DNA of 64,000 nucleotides, taken from positions 3,844,001-3,908,000 of the forward strand of contig NC_003552.1 in NCBI RefSeq assembly GCF_000007345.1, in the 5' to 3' direction. This DNA is from Methanosarcina acetivorans C2A. GTDB lineage: Archaea > Halobacteriota > Methanosarcinia > Methanosarcinales > Methanosarcinaceae. Each line of letters opens with the position of its first letter. Positions within the stretch are counted from its first letter, which is position 1. Below the pieces are notes generated by a model. The model did not search any database and had not been told where the DNA came from. It saw only the letters and a list, made by a program, of their open reading frames with translations. Shown piece by piece: positions 11,635-18,517 of this stretch. A program made the position numbers and the translations under genes.

Positions 11635-12399
11635 ATGATTGAAATTCTCAAAATACTCTTTGCAATGGCCTTTCTGCTCTACTCGTGCTATTCCGACCTG
11701 AAAGCCCGCAGGGTCTCAAACGGGGTCTGGAAATACATGCTGGTGTCAGGTTCGGTGTTCGTAATTTATGAACTATTTACTGGTGGGACCCCCTATCTCA
11801 AAGCTCTGTTCCTTTCTGGAGTGGTAGTTTTTATTTCCGTTTATATCCTCTTCCACCTTGGGGCTTTCGGGGGCGGGGACGCAAAAGGACTTCTAGTGCT
11901 TTCCATCCTTTTCCCACTGTACCCTATCTTCCAGTTCTCGGGAGAGGCCTATCCCCTGTTAGGAAGACCTCTGATAGGGCTTTTTACCTTAACAGTCCTG
12001 GGAAATGCGCTCCTGCTGACAGCTCTTATCCCTCTCGGAATGTTCTGTTACAACCTCCTTCATTTCTCCCCTGAAATGCTGAAAAAACCCCTTTACATGC
12101 TCATCGGGTACAGGACGGAGATCTCTTCCCTGAAAAACAAAGAATATCTTGCCCTGCTCGAGAAATTTGAAGTCGACGAACATGGAAGTATCATGAAAAG
12201 GTTTGCAAGGACAGGCCTTGATTTTGATGCGAATCAAAAACCTGAACTTGAAGAATATATGAAAAAAGGGCTTATTGGAAAAGATGTCTGGGTTACCCCT
12301 GGCCTGCCTTTTATGCTCTCAATTACAGCGGGATTTATTACTGCTATTGTTTTCGGGGATTTCATATTTTATATTGTTATGTGTCTTATGCTGGGCTGA
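11635..12399 (+). CDS. Prepilin peptidase (A24 aspartyl protease, FlaK/EppA-like)
   Basis: About 254 residues of polytopic membrane protein. The first catalytic Asp is in SCYSDLKARRVSN after helix 1, and the second is in the family signature GGGDAK near residue 85. The frame is open back to 11497, but I place the start at ATG 11635 (MIEILK). Family members begin directly with helix 1, and the upstream extension carries a terminator-like hairpin. A TATA-like TTCATAAAAA about 25 nt upstream would give a leaderless mRNA. A soluble insertion of about 80 residues (about 150-230) separates the C-terminal helices. It would process the pilin-like protein at 5589. Confidence 0.85.
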   Translation: MIEILKILFAMAFLLYSCYSDLKARRVSNGVWKYMLVSGSVFVIYELFTGGTPYLKALFLSGVVVFISVYILFHLGAFGGGDAKGLLVLSILFPLYPIFQFSGEAYPLLGRPLIGLFTLTVLGNALLLTALIPLGMFCYNLLHFSPEMLKKPLYMLIGYRTEISSLKNKEYLALLEKFEVDEHGSIMKRFARTGLDFDANQKPELEEYMKKGLIGKDVWVTPGLPFMLSITAGFITAIVFGDFIFYIVMCLMLG

Positions 12400-12542
12400 A
12401 TTAAATCCTGAATCTGAATACAGAAGGCTACACTGTCTTATTTTATAAAACTAGACTGAATGTATGAAAACGTATTATATCTGGAAACGTATGAAACGTC
12501 CAATACACAGGTTTGAAAACAAATCTCGTGTCAACATATGGT

Positions 12543-12714
12543 AAAAACCGAAATTGATCTTATTAGCTGCAGGGGAGTAGATTCCTGCAGCCTGGAAAAA
12601 CGGCCTATTCAAAAGTCGACAAGCTCTCACATCCAGACACACAACCGCATTAAACCGTTTTATTCGAAACCCAATTTAGTGCAGTTACGGATCTGACCTA
12701 CACTGACCTACAAG
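12543..12714 (-). ncRNA. Candidate small RNA A (first of three homologous copies)
   Basis: This is the most diverged of three related minus-strand units (compare 14270-14419 and 14635-14787). A TATA-like ATATATAC lies at about 12736-12743. The predicted start is about 25 nt further on, followed by the shared 5' motif GTGTAGGTCAGATCCG. Near the 3' end an 8-bp perfect stem (GCTGCAGG/CCTGCAGC on the minus strand, 12566-12591) encloses a loop containing CTCCCC. A T-run follows at 12543-12547. No ORF is apparent. The conserved promoter, 5' motif and C-rich loop support an RNA gene; expression is not shown. Confidence 0.5.
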
Positions 12715-12899
12715 ATGTAGTAATGAACATAGTAGTATATATGTTTTTTGTGAGTATTCTATAGAGTAATGACTTTAACTAAATAGTTATTTTCCTTATG
12801 GATCTGATAAATAGGCAGCGATTCTTAAGATTCATGATTTCCTTATATATTCAAAATATTTCTTGCTCACAATTTTCAATATAGAACATTTATAACTAT

Positions 12900-13440
12900 T
12901 CAGGTTAGCAGTGAAGGCTCAAGAGGCGATAGAAACAATTCACACATCTATAGTACCCCCGGAACCTATCACGTTATTCAGACAGTAACAAACCCTGACA
13001 GTCCTGCAGGTGGAGACACAAAAGAGATAACCATAACCATTACCGAGATACCGGCATCTAATAAGACATCTGCTGTCAATGAAACACCTGTTATTCTTGC
13101 AGCAAACTTCGAAGCTAACCTCACAGATGGCGTTGCATTGTTGTCCGTAGCTTTCACAGATTTATCAGCCGATGCAACTACCATCAACCGATGCAACTAC
13201 CTATGAATGGGACTACGGAGACAATTCCGGAAAATCCACAGAACAGAACCCATCCTATGTTCTCACCAGGGCAGAGGGTTACGATGTTGTCTTAACGTTG
13301 GTGATGGCAAAGGGCATACAGCCACAAAAGACATGTTGATAACTGTCACTTCAACTTCACTTGTTGCAGACTTCGATGCCAACAAAATGAGTGGCTTTGA
13401 CCCATTGAGCCAGAAGACTCATCATACGATTTTTATTTAA
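12900..13440 (+). pseudogene. Decayed PKD-domain surface protein fragment
   Basis: Three overlapping frames together encode PKD-type sequence without a plausible start. From about 12908 the frame reads IYSTPGTYHVIQTVTN and later AANFEANLTDG, ending at TGA about 13204. The next frame gives TTYEWDYGDNSGKSTEQNPS, and a third gives GDGKGHTATKDMLITV up to 13440. The first break coincides with a 12-bp direct repeat (GATGCAACTACC at 13171 and 13190), offset by 19 bp, which shifts the frame by +1. A second slip lies near 13290. A relict of a multi-PKD protein like the one at 47085. Confidence 0.75.
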
Positions 13441-13636
13441 CCTCTATTAATTGCCTTTAAACACTCACATGCTTCTCTAATTGGATAATTTCCATAGCTT
13501 CCCTCACGAATCCGTGCCGAACGAAGTAACCTCATGCTTATGAAAAAAGACAAAACACCGGTAATGCTGGTGAAGTCCCCCTTATCCTGCCATACTTAAA
13601 CAGGAAATGCCAGGCAATGCTGCCAAATCCCTGACA

Positions 13637-14101
13637 TCATTTCCCAAATGTCTGGGAAATCCAGTCTTTTATCTCATCTCTGATCCGGCGGAATACCTTG
13701 AGCTGCTCTTCCTCTGATCCCATAGCTGCAGCAGGGTCCTCAAAACTTTTGTGAATTACTTCTCTTGCTCTGGGAGCTTCAGTCGGAAGTTCCAGATTCG
13801 TGCTGCAGATAGGACAGGACACTTTAGCCCTATCGCAGACCGTGACCGCCATGTCAAAAATTGTATCCTGAAATTCTTTGGGGGTTTTAGAGTACTGACC
13901 GGAGATATCGATGCCAATTTCCTTCATGACCTGAACAGCGTGAGGATTAACAGTTGTGGCTTTGACGCCAGCACTGTAAGCCTCGTATCGATCTCCGTAA
14001 ATAGCCCTCAAAAGACCTTCAGCCATCTGGGACCTGGCTGAGTTGTGGGTGCACAGAAATAGAATTTTTTTCTTTTCTTTCGATCTTTTATTTGATGTCA
14101 T
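13637..14101 (-). CDS. arsC: Arsenate reductase / low-molecular-weight protein tyrosine phosphatase family (ArsC, thioredoxin type)
   Basis: 154 residues. The catalytic loop CTHNSARS (Cys17, CX5R) is followed by QMAEGLLR and YSAGV, the signature of LMW-PTP-fold arsenate reductases. Cys89 and Cys96, in VCDRAKVSCPICS, match the second and third redox cysteines that pass the disulfide to thioredoxin, which favours arsenate reduction over plain phosphatase activity. Asp in the general-acid loop is replaced by a region around HKSFEDPAA, where D is present. No ars regulator or pump lies beside it. It sits downstream of candidate sRNA B on the same strand. Confidence 0.85.
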   Translation of the reverse strand: MTSNKRSKEKKKILFLCTHNSARSQMAEGLLRAIYGDRYEAYSAGVKATTVNPHAVQVMKEIGIDISGQYSKTPKEFQDTIFDMAVTVCDRAKVSCPICSTNLELPTEAPRAREVIHKSFEDPAAAMGSEEEQLKVFRRIRDEIKDWISQTFGK

Positions 14102-14269
14102 TAAACCACTACCGCATATGATAACAAATCAGCATTATGCCTTTTCCTGTAAGCTGTTTTTAGGTTATTCTTGAGAAGTTATACGATAAGAATTCGTGAA
14201 ACCATTCGCGATCATAAGTACAGATTTACCTGTGGAATTATATCAAAATCCAAAGTTATACAGTAAGCA

Positions 14270-14419
14270 TCAAAAAATAGGTTCTAGGCTGAAGGGGAGC
14301 TATACCTGCAGCCCAGAGAGACAGTGTGTAAGGATTTATGTTTTTGCGCTTTAGACTTATACTCACCAAGCCACTTAATTCCGAGATTCATATGTGGAGG
14401 CCACGGATCTGGCCTACAC
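14270..14419 (-). ncRNA. Candidate small RNA B
   Basis: On the minus strand an AAAAG plus ATATATATAAG promoter (TATA 14438-14449) is followed after 25 nt by a predicted start at GTGTAGGCC (14419). The 5' end folds through AGGCCA/TGGCCT. Shared middle blocks are TGGCTTGG and GAGTATAAGT. Near the 3' end a stem (14287-14313) presents a loop with AGCTCCCC. It is followed by AACCTATTTTTT, a T-run consistent with archaeal termination. Copy C aligns over the entire length with a 370-bp offset, while stem bases differ. No coding frame is shared by the copies. Confidence 0.6.
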
Positions 14420-14634
14420 TTAACCAGTAGACGCGAACTTATATATATCTTTTGAAGGTATTCTAAATAGTACTACCCAGAACTAAAGAGTGATTTTTAG
14501 GTAAACCTGACAAAGAGTTGCCCCATAATTGGTATGTAAAACTGTGTTTAGTTGAAATTCAAAAGTAATTCATGAACATAAATACAAAGTTTGCCTGTGA
14601 AACCATATCAAAATCCAGAGTTCTACAGTAGACA

Positions 14635-14787
14635 CCAAAAGTAGGTTTTCCAGGCCTGCGGGAGGACTTATGATTAAGGCCTAGAAAGACAGTCGGTAGA
14701 TTGGTTGATATGGTTTTCACATTCAAACTTATACTCGCCAAGCCACAATTCATATCCTTAGAGATCAGAGGCTGATCTGACCTACAC
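14635..14787 (-). ncRNA. Candidate small RNA C
   Basis: Same layout as copy B: BRE-like AAAAG and TATATAAG (14805-14814), predicted start at GTGTAGGTCAGATC (14787), TGGCTTGG and GAGTATAAGT blocks, a 3' stem built from two AGGCCT halves (14652-14657 and 14677-14682), a loop with TCCTCCC, and AACCTACTTTT at the end. The 5' hairpin uses a different stem (AGATCAG/CTGATCT) at the equivalent place. TCCTCCC is complementary to GGAGG-type ribosome-binding sites, so a trans-acting translational regulator is a reasonable hypothesis. Confidence 0.6.
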
Positions 14788-14869
14788 ATACTTACTAGAC
14801 ATGACTTATATATCTTTTGAAGGTATTCTAAATAGTACTATTTAAAACTAAAAGGTATTATTTAACGTG

Positions 14870-14960
14870 AATCTGATCGCATATCTGAAATTCATATCCC
14901 AAGGTACACTTTGAGATCTCACACAGGTATGCGCTCATATATTCTTTTAACGTGTTAACC
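14870..14960 (-). repeat. Partial fourth copy of the sRNA promoter and 5' region
   Basis: The block with ATTCATATCC (about 14890-14900) and CTCATATATTCTTTTAA (about 14932-14948) aligns to the 5' part and promoter of candidate sRNA C, with shared spacing between the two motifs. The 3' hairpin with the C-rich loop is absent. It is probably a truncated relict. It lies directly upstream of the PhoU-like gene. Confidence 0.35.
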
Positions 14961-15061
14961 ATTCGCTAATTAGTCATTACTTCCAGATTTATTTTAAAAT
15001 TCTCGGCGTAAAAGATTATAGACAACGAAGAACTTTAGATATTTAAAACAACACTAAGAGT

Positions 15062-15132
15062 TAACCTTATATATAGCCCTTGTCTATATAGATCATACTA
15101 AAATCATTAGAGCCTCTTCAGGAGGATTATCT
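15062..15132 (+). promoter_or_regulatory. Promoter and ribosome-binding site of the PhoU-like gene
   Basis: TTATATATAG at about 15067-15076 is a good archaeal TATA box, with an expected transcript start near 15092. AGGAGGA at 15120-15126 is a strong ribosome-binding site. No ATG, GTG, TTG or CTG follows in the PhoU frame before the conserved coding region begins. The codon at the usual spacing is ATT 15133. Confidence 0.6.
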
Positions 15133-16137
15133 ATTACCAAAGATAGAAGAAAAATTCAGTTTACCGGAAATTCTACCTATATAGTGTCTCTTCCCATAAA
15201 ATGGGTCCGGGATATAGGGCTTAAACCTGGAGACACACTGAACCTTACATCCATGCCTAACAAAACCCTGCTGGTTTCCTCAAGTGTGCTCCCGAAAGAA
15301 CGCTCTGTCCTTAAGGCATCTATAGATTATCTCCACACCGAAAGTGCAGAAAACAACCTCAGAATTATTATATCTCATTATCTTGCGGGTTATGATTCTC
15401 TCAAACTGACCACCAGCAAAGGTTTCAGTGCCTATGACCGCAAATTTATCAAAGATTCAGTGCGTCAGAAATTAATAGGCCTCGAACTTGTGGAAGAATC
15501 AAGGAATGAACTTGTCTTTTTGTGTTTACTTAATTACACTGACCTTCCCCTTGGAAGAGTAATCAAAAACATGTACGGACTTGTGCTTTCCATGCTTCTG
15601 GACTCCATGACATCTCTTCGCAACCACAATATGGAAATTGCAGAGGACGTGATCCAGAGAGACGATGATGTCGATCGCTTTTATCTGCTTGCTGTCCGCC
15701 AGCTCAAGGCTTCACTTGATGATGTAGAACTAGCCGAAAAAATAGGGATTCGAAGTTCAAAAGATTGCCTGGGATACAGGCTTATTATAAAGAGTATCGA
15801 ACGCGTAGGAGATCATGCGGTCAAGATAGCTTCAAATGTCTTGAAAATGGATACCGGAATAAGCGTTGATGACCCCATCTTTAAAATGGCTGAACTCTCC
15901 CGAAAGGTTTTTGAAAGTTCAATAGACTCAATGGCAGAAGACGACCTGCAGGCTATCAATAAAATTGTTGTGGATGCCAAAAATGTTTCCCAGTTTGGAG
16001 TTTCCCTGGAGTCCCGGGGTGATGGAAGTACACTTGATATTGCACTCAGTATGATTCTGGAGAGCCTGCGCAGGGTAGCCGAATATAGCGCCGATATCGC
16101 AGAAGTTTCAATCAATATGAATGTAAAGAAGATCTGA
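15133..16137 (+). CDS. PhoU-family regulator with N-terminal AbrB/SpoVT-like domain, apparent ATT start
   Basis: About 334 residues. The N-terminal part (RRKIQFTGNSTYIVSLP, then WVRDIGLKPGDTL) is the SpoVT/AbrB-like swapped-hairpin domain seen in archaeal PhoU proteins. Two PhoU helical bundles follow (for example RDDDVDRFYLLAVRQLKA and IKSIERVGDHAVKIA). The first conventional start in frame is GTG 15184, which would cut the AbrB domain in half. The conserved sequence extends up to ATT 15133, six bases after GGAGGA. The protein probably senses or regulates phosphate uptake or metal-linked phosphate metabolism. No pst genes are adjacent here, although a PstA-like tail lies at the left edge. 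Confidence 0.85.
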   Translation: MTKDRRKIQFTGNSTYIVSLPIKWVRDIGLKPGDTLNLTSMPNKTLLVSSSVLPKERSVLKASIDYLHTESAENNLRIIISHYLAGYDSLKLTTSKGFSAYDRKFIKDSVRQKLIGLELVEESRNELVFLCLLNYTDLPLGRVIKNMYGLVLSMLLDSMTSLRNHNMEIAEDVIQRDDDVDRFYLLAVRQLKASLDDVELAEKIGIRSSKDCLGYRLIIKSIERVGDHAVKIASNVLKMDTGISVDDPIFKMAELSRKVFESSIDSMAEDDLQAINKIVVDAKNVSQFGVSLESRGDGSTLDIALSMILESLRRVAEYSADIAEVSINMNVKKI

Positions 16138-17369: not shown

Positions 17370-17480
17370 ATATTGTTAAGTGCGAAGGATAGTAACGTTA
17401 TGGTTGACATCTGTGAAATAGCAATAATCTCCGGAAAAGGAGTATACAAACGCTGAAGATGTCGCCAGGGAATTTAAGGA
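17370..17480 (+). pseudogene. Decayed DUF2795 copy
   Basis: Between the leader hairpin and the intact DUF2795 gene lies sequence that aligns to the 3' half of that gene. GCTGAAGATGTCGCC (17453-17467) matches the codons for AEDVA, and TCCGGA and GACAT blocks keep their spacing. Several in-frame stops and loss of the start make it non-functional. It indicates that the family was once at least three copies here. Confidence 0.55.
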
Positions 17481-17506
17481 GACTAACAAAAGTAAGGGGG
17501 AATATT

Positions 17507-17746
17507 ATGGAAACTGAGAGTAAAAGCAGATTTATTACAGAACTCCCTGTGGAAACTCAGAAGATATTAAACAATATAACCTATCCCGTAAACAGGAGCG
17601 ACATTATTGGGCAAGCAAGGAAGAGCGGAGCAATCCCGGACATAATGCGGGGATTTGGCATGCTTCCGGACAGGCAATACAACAGCGCTGAAGATGTTGC
17701 CGAGGAACTTCATATAATTTACATGGGGGTCCCCGCCCAAGCGTAA
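17507..17746 (+). CDS. DUF2795 family small protein, copy 1
   Basis: 79 residues from ATG 17507, which follows AAGGGGGAAT; the frame is open further upstream but that part is the decayed copy. Sequence features of DUF2795 are clear: YPVNRSDIIGQARKSGA, then DIMRGFGMLPDRQYNSAEDV. The family has no established molecular role. These short helical proteins are often found as paralogues. It is nearly identical to copy 2 over the C-terminal half and ends with a different tail (MGVPAQA). Probably soluble and cytoplasmic. Confidence 0.82.
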   Translation: METESKSRFITELPVETQKILNNITYPVNRSDIIGQARKSGAIPDIMRGFGMLPDRQYNSAEDVAEELHIIYMGVPAQA

Positions 17747-18274: not shown

Positions 18275-18517
18275 ATGGGAACTGAGAGTAAAAGCAAATT
18301 TATTACAGAACTTCCGATGGAAACTCAGGAAATATTAAACGATATAGCCTACCCTGTAAACAGAAACGACATTATTGAGCAAGCAAGGAAGAGCGGAGCA
18401 ATCCCGGACATAATGCGGGGATTTGGCATGCTTCCGGACAGACAATACAATAGCGCTGAGGACGTCGCCGAGGAACTTCATATAATTTACTTGGGGCCCC
18501 CCTCCGAAAAAGCGTAA
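18275..18517 (+). CDS. DUF2795 family small protein, copy 2
   Basis: 80 residues from ATG 18275 after AAAGGGGGAAT. It shares almost all residues with copy 1: NRNDIIEQARKSGAIPDIM, GFGMLPDRQYNSAEDVAEE. It ends in LGPPSEKA. Both copies have the same operator pair and hairpin leader, so they are probably co-regulated from separate promoters. Function unknown. Confidence 0.85.
   Translation: MGTESKSKFITELPMETQEILNDIAYPVNRNDIIEQARKSGAIPDIMRGFGMLPDRQYNSAEDVAEELHIIYLGPPSEKA

Follow-up and report, generated by a model that had tools for sequence, protein, structure and literature searches.

The window, by which we mean the whole 64,000-nucleotide stretch of Methanosarcina acetivorans C2A DNA analysed here, carries on its minus strand three RNA candidates (units A, B and C), at the places where a sequence-only reading had put them. 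Identity and BLAST comparisons confirm that they are homologues of one another: the RNA parts are 63-74% identical and the promoter blocks 63-83%, and B matches C in BLAST at E 4e-26. The window contains the promoter string twice, whereas the expectation from shuffles is 0.00. The promoter block of unit C (14794..14859, minus strand) is an exact pattern match (0 expected) and scores 56.9 bits with R1, our sequence model of this block; its operator-like TTTTAAATAGTACTATTTAGAA occupies 14826-14847 and its BRE/TATA reads CAAAAGATATATAA. The RNA candidate of unit C (14635..14790) is indicated by RNAalifold on seven copies and by a weak match (14623-14733, E 0.067) of R2, a separately built model of the RNA 3′ half, with hairpin I at about 14762-14778 and hairpin II at about 14650-14684. 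In unit B, the block containing TAGTACTATTTAGAATACCTTCAAAAGATATATATAA lies at 14426..14493 (minus strand, R1 match of 63.8 bits) and the RNA candidate at 14268..14422 (R2 match 14258-14365, RNAalifold), with hairpin I at 14398-14415, hairpin II at about 14283-14317 and a T-run at 14272-14277. Unit A has the most divergent block of the three (12722..12790, minus strand, 44.6 bits); its RNA candidate (12540..12714) is matched by R2 at 12536-12654 with 59 bits, and hairpin II (12565-12592) is followed by AAGATCAATTT, which is kept genus-wide. The claimed C-rich loops are all present, as CTCCCC in A (12572-12577) and B (14294-14299) and as TCCTCCC in C (14660-14666). Terminal T-runs were likewise borne out for B and C, and A has a looser one.

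The divergent neighbour of unit C, on the plus strand at 15184..16137, encodes a protein with an AbrB/MazE-like and a PhoU domain (Pfam PhoU 3e-20; MazE_antitoxin 4e-5, just under the cut-off); its true start is probably upstream, in an open frame of 359 aa. Downstream of unit B lies a low-molecular-weight (LMW) phosphatase or arsenate-reductase-like gene (13637..14101, minus strand, Pfam LMWPc 2e-17); an arsC remnant likewise follows another copy of the family, copy F. Downstream of the phosphatase gene we noticed the remnant of an APH-type kinase C-terminus (13435-13596, minus strand); intact kinase genes at 2.890 and 3.779 Mb match it at their 3′ ends. The interval between A and B is best regarded as gene debris, since it holds an apparent decayed PKD-domain protein (TYEWDYGDNSGKS... 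on the plus strand, about 12978-13440). Further along, a tandem pair of near-identical small genes (17459-17746 and 18275-18517, plus strand, METESKSRFITELPVETQKILNNITYPVNR...) is unconnected with the RNA family.

The three copies of the sequence-only reading are real, and the search of the whole genome brings the total to seven. The four copies beyond the window, D (L009:4408+), E (L009:8570+), F (L010:6105+) and G (L010:8193+), lie at 2.890, 2.894, 2.904 and 2.906 Mb. Indeed, R1 recovers exactly these seven in the 5.75-Mb closed genome (E 7e-11 to 6e-17), all within two phosphate-type loci. Neither the four additional copies nor the operator-like block that the units share, nor the association with PhoU, had been noticed in the earlier reading.

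A genus-wide model search returned 132 R1 matches (E<=0.01) in 18 of the 31 Methanosarcina genomes and left 13 without any. The bog_70 MAG has 52 matches, fen_51 has 24 and the other positive genomes 1 to 7 each, counts that are approximate because matches below about 25 bits can arise by chance in AT-rich DNA. No R1 match was obtained in 81 genomes from other Methanosarcinaceae genera at E<=1e-6. The separate model of the RNA 3′ half gives the same picture. When R2 was scanned over 43 loci, many of them outside the seed set, it started between -5 and 160 nt after R1 on the same strand for 62 of 76 R1 matches, and only six R2 matches lacked R1. Genome-wide, the two counts correlate (Spearman 0.90), and the 13 Methanosarcina genomes without R1 gave no R2 match. 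R2 was also absent from 39 loci outside the genus that carry a promoter string; these strings, like those in two viral contigs, were taken as chance matches because the RNA part is missing. Several homologous copies with one promoter type, as in multicopy sibling sRNAs, are what we find: seven in M. acetivorans and up to 52 elsewhere. By these two models, the RNA family is Methanosarcina-specific and multicopy, with 1 to about 50 copies in each genome that bears it.

The consensus of the promoter block, TTTAGTTTAAGTTAGTACTATTTAGAATATATnCAAAAGATATATAA, consists of an operator-like AT-rich segment with TAGTACTA, followed by BRE and TATA. Hairpin I comes about 25 nt later. The start motif GTGTAGG[CT]CAGATC, which the units do have in common as claimed, is mostly its 5′ arm: local copies read AGGTCA-GATCCG-TGACCT, unit B reads AGGCCA-GATCCG-TGGCCT, and elsewhere we find AGGTA-TTCCAG-TACCT. 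The middle of the RNA is variable, long in M. acetivorans and short in other species; the predicted RNA would measure about 150 nt in the former and about 85-95 nt in its short form. Hairpin II has the form GGCTGCAG(G)-pyrimidine-rich loop-(C)CTGCAGCY and is followed by ACAAGATCAA and often a T-run; a T4 run lies within 26 nt after it in 42 of 66 copies genus-wide. The stem of unit C differs from those of the other units (CTAGGCCT/AGGCCTGG). In the loop of hairpin II, C makes up 39% and pyrimidines 67%, whereas the flanks have 20% C and 54% pyrimidine; the window copies carry CTCC or a similar motif in this loop, as anti-Shine-Dalgarno (SD) RNAs do. The proposal that this loop is anti-GGAGG thus holds for its pyrimidine- and C-rich composition, but the exact complement is not found in every copy.

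RNAalifold predicted both hairpins from the seven local copies, in which 84.7% of the pair cells form, compared with 31-43% when the partners are slid. The claim that stem bases differ while pairing persists gains weak support from this pairing, but both sides change in only 2 of 16 pairs, not clearly above shuffles. Genus-wide, 93.1% of the hairpin II cells are paired, and 11 double-change cells stand against 4.0 in shuffles. From these counts we conclude that the structure is kept mostly through sequence conservation, with a real but limited amount of compensatory change; the covariance check asked for earlier thus gave a modest signal, dominated by the conserved stem sequence. Hairpin I, formed in 37 copies against 26.6 in shuffles (sd 3.7), shows a slight excess. 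A MAFFT alignment of it placed the copies in differing registers, so pairs were not counted on that alignment. Folding z-scores of the whole RNA range from -0.9 to -2.4. In a third subclass (L085:2822, L090, L092, L094, L099, L102, L103) we noticed an apparent long 5′ pairing, GGAGGTATCAAGTGATTCGATT / AATCGATACACTGGTACTTCC; RNAalifold retained hairpin II only. Overall, there is strong support for units A to C being homologous members of one family of structured RNA candidates, each driven by a promoter on the minus strand.

Both M. acetivorans loci combine an AbrB-PhoU fusion with a PstS-like binding protein, a CHAD/CYTH protein, an APH-type kinase, a histidine kinase and an LMW phosphatase. 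They resemble a segmental duplication, their PhoU genes being 92.2% identical in DNA. Of the 31 Methanosarcina genomes, 30 contain 1-4 matches to the AbrB-PhoU gene. Additional paralogues are located about 300-370 bp away from an RNA copy, in tandem or divergent order, in G000, G003, G004 (two, one of them a broken gene), G007, G026 and G028. Phosphate starvation is known to induce the pst-phoU operons of M. mazei (PMC6864096). Near the AbrB-PhoU copies of pst-operon type we found no R1 match, and the promoter block does not stand in front of pst genes; the link with phosphate is therefore one of gene neighbourhood. In six species one copy has been retained with a PhoU and/or kinase gene on one side and a HAD hydrolase on the other; together with the neighbourhood of the paralogues, this suggests that a Pho-type locus is the likely ancestral home of the family. 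The majority of the bog_70 and fen_51 copies lie far from any PhoU gene, and a later spread of copies in these two genomes is likely. We also observed, divergently 350-385 nt upstream of several bog_70 copies (L065, L066, L067, L076), a 110-140-aa HTH/terminase-small-subunit-like protein, for which the one example tested had no Pfam match; it is a possible vehicle of this spread.

We give about even chances to the view that these are small, structured RNA genes specific to Methanosarcina, present in several copies, switched together, and offering a C-rich loop to purine-rich SD regions. Each copy would be transcribed from its own archaeal promoter, preceded by an operator-like block centred on TAGTACTA. 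As this block is common to the copies, one regulator probably switches them together; the AbrB-PhoU protein, whose gene neighbours several copies, would be the leading candidate, and the signal would likely be phosphate supply. In the RNA, a variable middle would separate a short 5′ hairpin from a 3′ hairpin, and the pyrimidine- or C-rich loop of the latter may pair in trans with purine-rich SD regions, the copies working as sibling sRNAs with differing loop variants. Such action against ribosome-binding sites in trans is a plausible candidate function of the loop. When the loops of the seven copies were paired against 71 local gene starts and ranked by duplex energy, purine-rich leaders paired well in general and the neighbouring phosphate genes were not singled out. 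In M. acetivorans a free-standing sRNA is the simplest reading, since no well-supported gene on the same strand lies just after copies A, D and G, and a T-run often follows hairpin II across the genus. A bolder form of this explanation, in which up to about 50 siblings share one dedicated operator, recognised by AbrB-PhoU-type regulators, and throttle translation through loop variants acting as anti-SD mimics, seems to us improbable.

In bog_70 and fen_51 (L064, L067, L068, L069, L080), AAGATCAGCTGGATCACCTAA-like DNA follows the T-run, with up to 12 nt (GCTGGATCACCT) identical to what we take to be the 3′ end of 16S rRNA. This resemblance exceeds that of shuffles, yet we did not build on it, because the M. 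acetivorans copies do not have it and the RNA probably ends before it.

The main rival draws on those copies that stand ahead of pentapeptide-repeat or zinc-finger genes. On this view the unit is the promoter and structured 5′ leader of an mRNA, whose hairpins and T-run act in cis, through attenuation or by controlling the downstream start; the genes affected would be accessory ones, such as those for pentapeptide-repeat, zinc-finger, small membrane or response-regulator proteins. We hold this to be possible, with clearly lower odds than free-standing sRNAs. Some copies in other species have a conserved gene 150-260 nt downstream, an arrangement that a leader fits equally well; in several species (L083, L079, L065, L101, L097, L086) pentapeptide-repeat genes begin 150-240 nt after the RNA, two copies stand ahead of a response-regulator ORF, and unit B itself is upstream of the LMW-phosphatase gene. 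The M. barkeri-type species offer a further case: an ORF for a 46-aa zinc-finger protein, preceded by a strong SD, begins about 200 nt after hairpin II, the DNA between is conserved, conservation runs into the ORF and the RNA has no T-run. However, the start codon of this ORF is ATA in three of seven species. We noted the conserved ORF itself (MKSLKICPECHSILKMSQ...YCPVC...) at L086, L089, L091, L093, L095, L097 and L085. The family as a whole does not hold a constant position upstream of one gene class, such as riboswitches and attenuators occupy, although subsets stand ahead of pentapeptide or zinc-finger genes. Against a leader, the downstream genes are mutually unrelated and often absent (A, D, G and many bog_70 copies), hairpin II has a T-run after it in 42 of 66 copies, and what stays constant is the promoter with the RNA, with no fixed partner gene. 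The two modes could both be true, in different subclasses.

It is also conceivable, but rather unlikely, that the units are a dispersed repeat or mobile cassette with a promoter but no RNA function, multiplied by duplication and transposition. A copy number ranging from 0 to 52, the clustering of copies, the same small HTH-like ORF beside several bog_70 copies and the apparent duplication of the two M. acetivorans loci would all agree with this. Yet RNA parts that are 58-74% identical have kept the promoter geometry, hairpin II, the C-rich loop and the AAGATCAA tail, one copy holds the same place between PhoU/kinase and HAD genes in six species, and an unsystematic look noticed no terminal repeats or target-site duplications. 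That the units encode small proteins is very improbable, and we rejected it for the window copies: the 76-aa frame of unit C and the 109-aa frame of copy E are not homologous, no matching frame exists in the remaining M. acetivorans copies, and the SD-preceded ORF (31-85 aa) overlapping hairpin II in the third subclass is frame-shifted in its middle between copies whose DNA is still similar.

If sRNA genes they are, their kind, judged on sequence features, would be that of multicopy C-rich-loop sRNAs, and new would be the archaeal setting, the high copy number and the single shared operator. In alphaproteobacteria, the CCUCCUCCC-loop sRNAs (for example NfeR1 and the 'cuckoo' RNAs) are multicopy siblings with anti-SD C-rich motifs in hairpin loops. 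By description, the likeness lies in the sibling copies and the C-rich hairpin loop; those RNAs are bacterial and usually have more than one such loop, whereas the new family has one loop and an archaeal promoter. Among intergenic Methanosarcina sRNAs, sRNA154 of M. mazei masks a ribosome-binding site with its loop 2, and sRNA41 masks ribosome-binding sites in polycistronic mRNAs (review PMC5867862). Loop-SD pairing is also conceivable for the loop of the new family. These two, however, are described as individual genes tied to nitrogen supply, and on such descriptions the new family is set apart by its multiple copies, its other promoter block, its phosphate-type neighbours and its absence from 13 of 31 species. 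A phosphate-connected archaeal sRNA, sRNA132 of Haloferax volcanii, affects a phosphate ABC transporter operon (PMC6560208); it is a single haloarchaeal gene, whereas the present family is multicopy and linked to phosphate by its gene neighbourhood alone.

The claim that the family had not been described agrees with our searches. Over 12300-15200, Rfam 15 returned nothing at E<=1; neither the window nor eight related loci gave a relevant gathering-score match, and no such family was found in freely accessible papers, although a prior description is possible. A 2016 study still asked for confirmation that sRNAs are present in M. acetivorans (PMC5112694), and the papers found include no characterised sRNA of this species.

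Few archaeal sRNAs have known targets. If our explanation is true, Methanosarcina, a genus that includes a genetically tractable species, would provide an archaeal sRNA family that is large and multicopy and whose common promoter can be read, and the common operator would be a direct handle for finding the regulator. It would also open up the questions of why sibling sRNAs multiply and of whether archaeal phosphate control has a PhoU-linked RNA arm.
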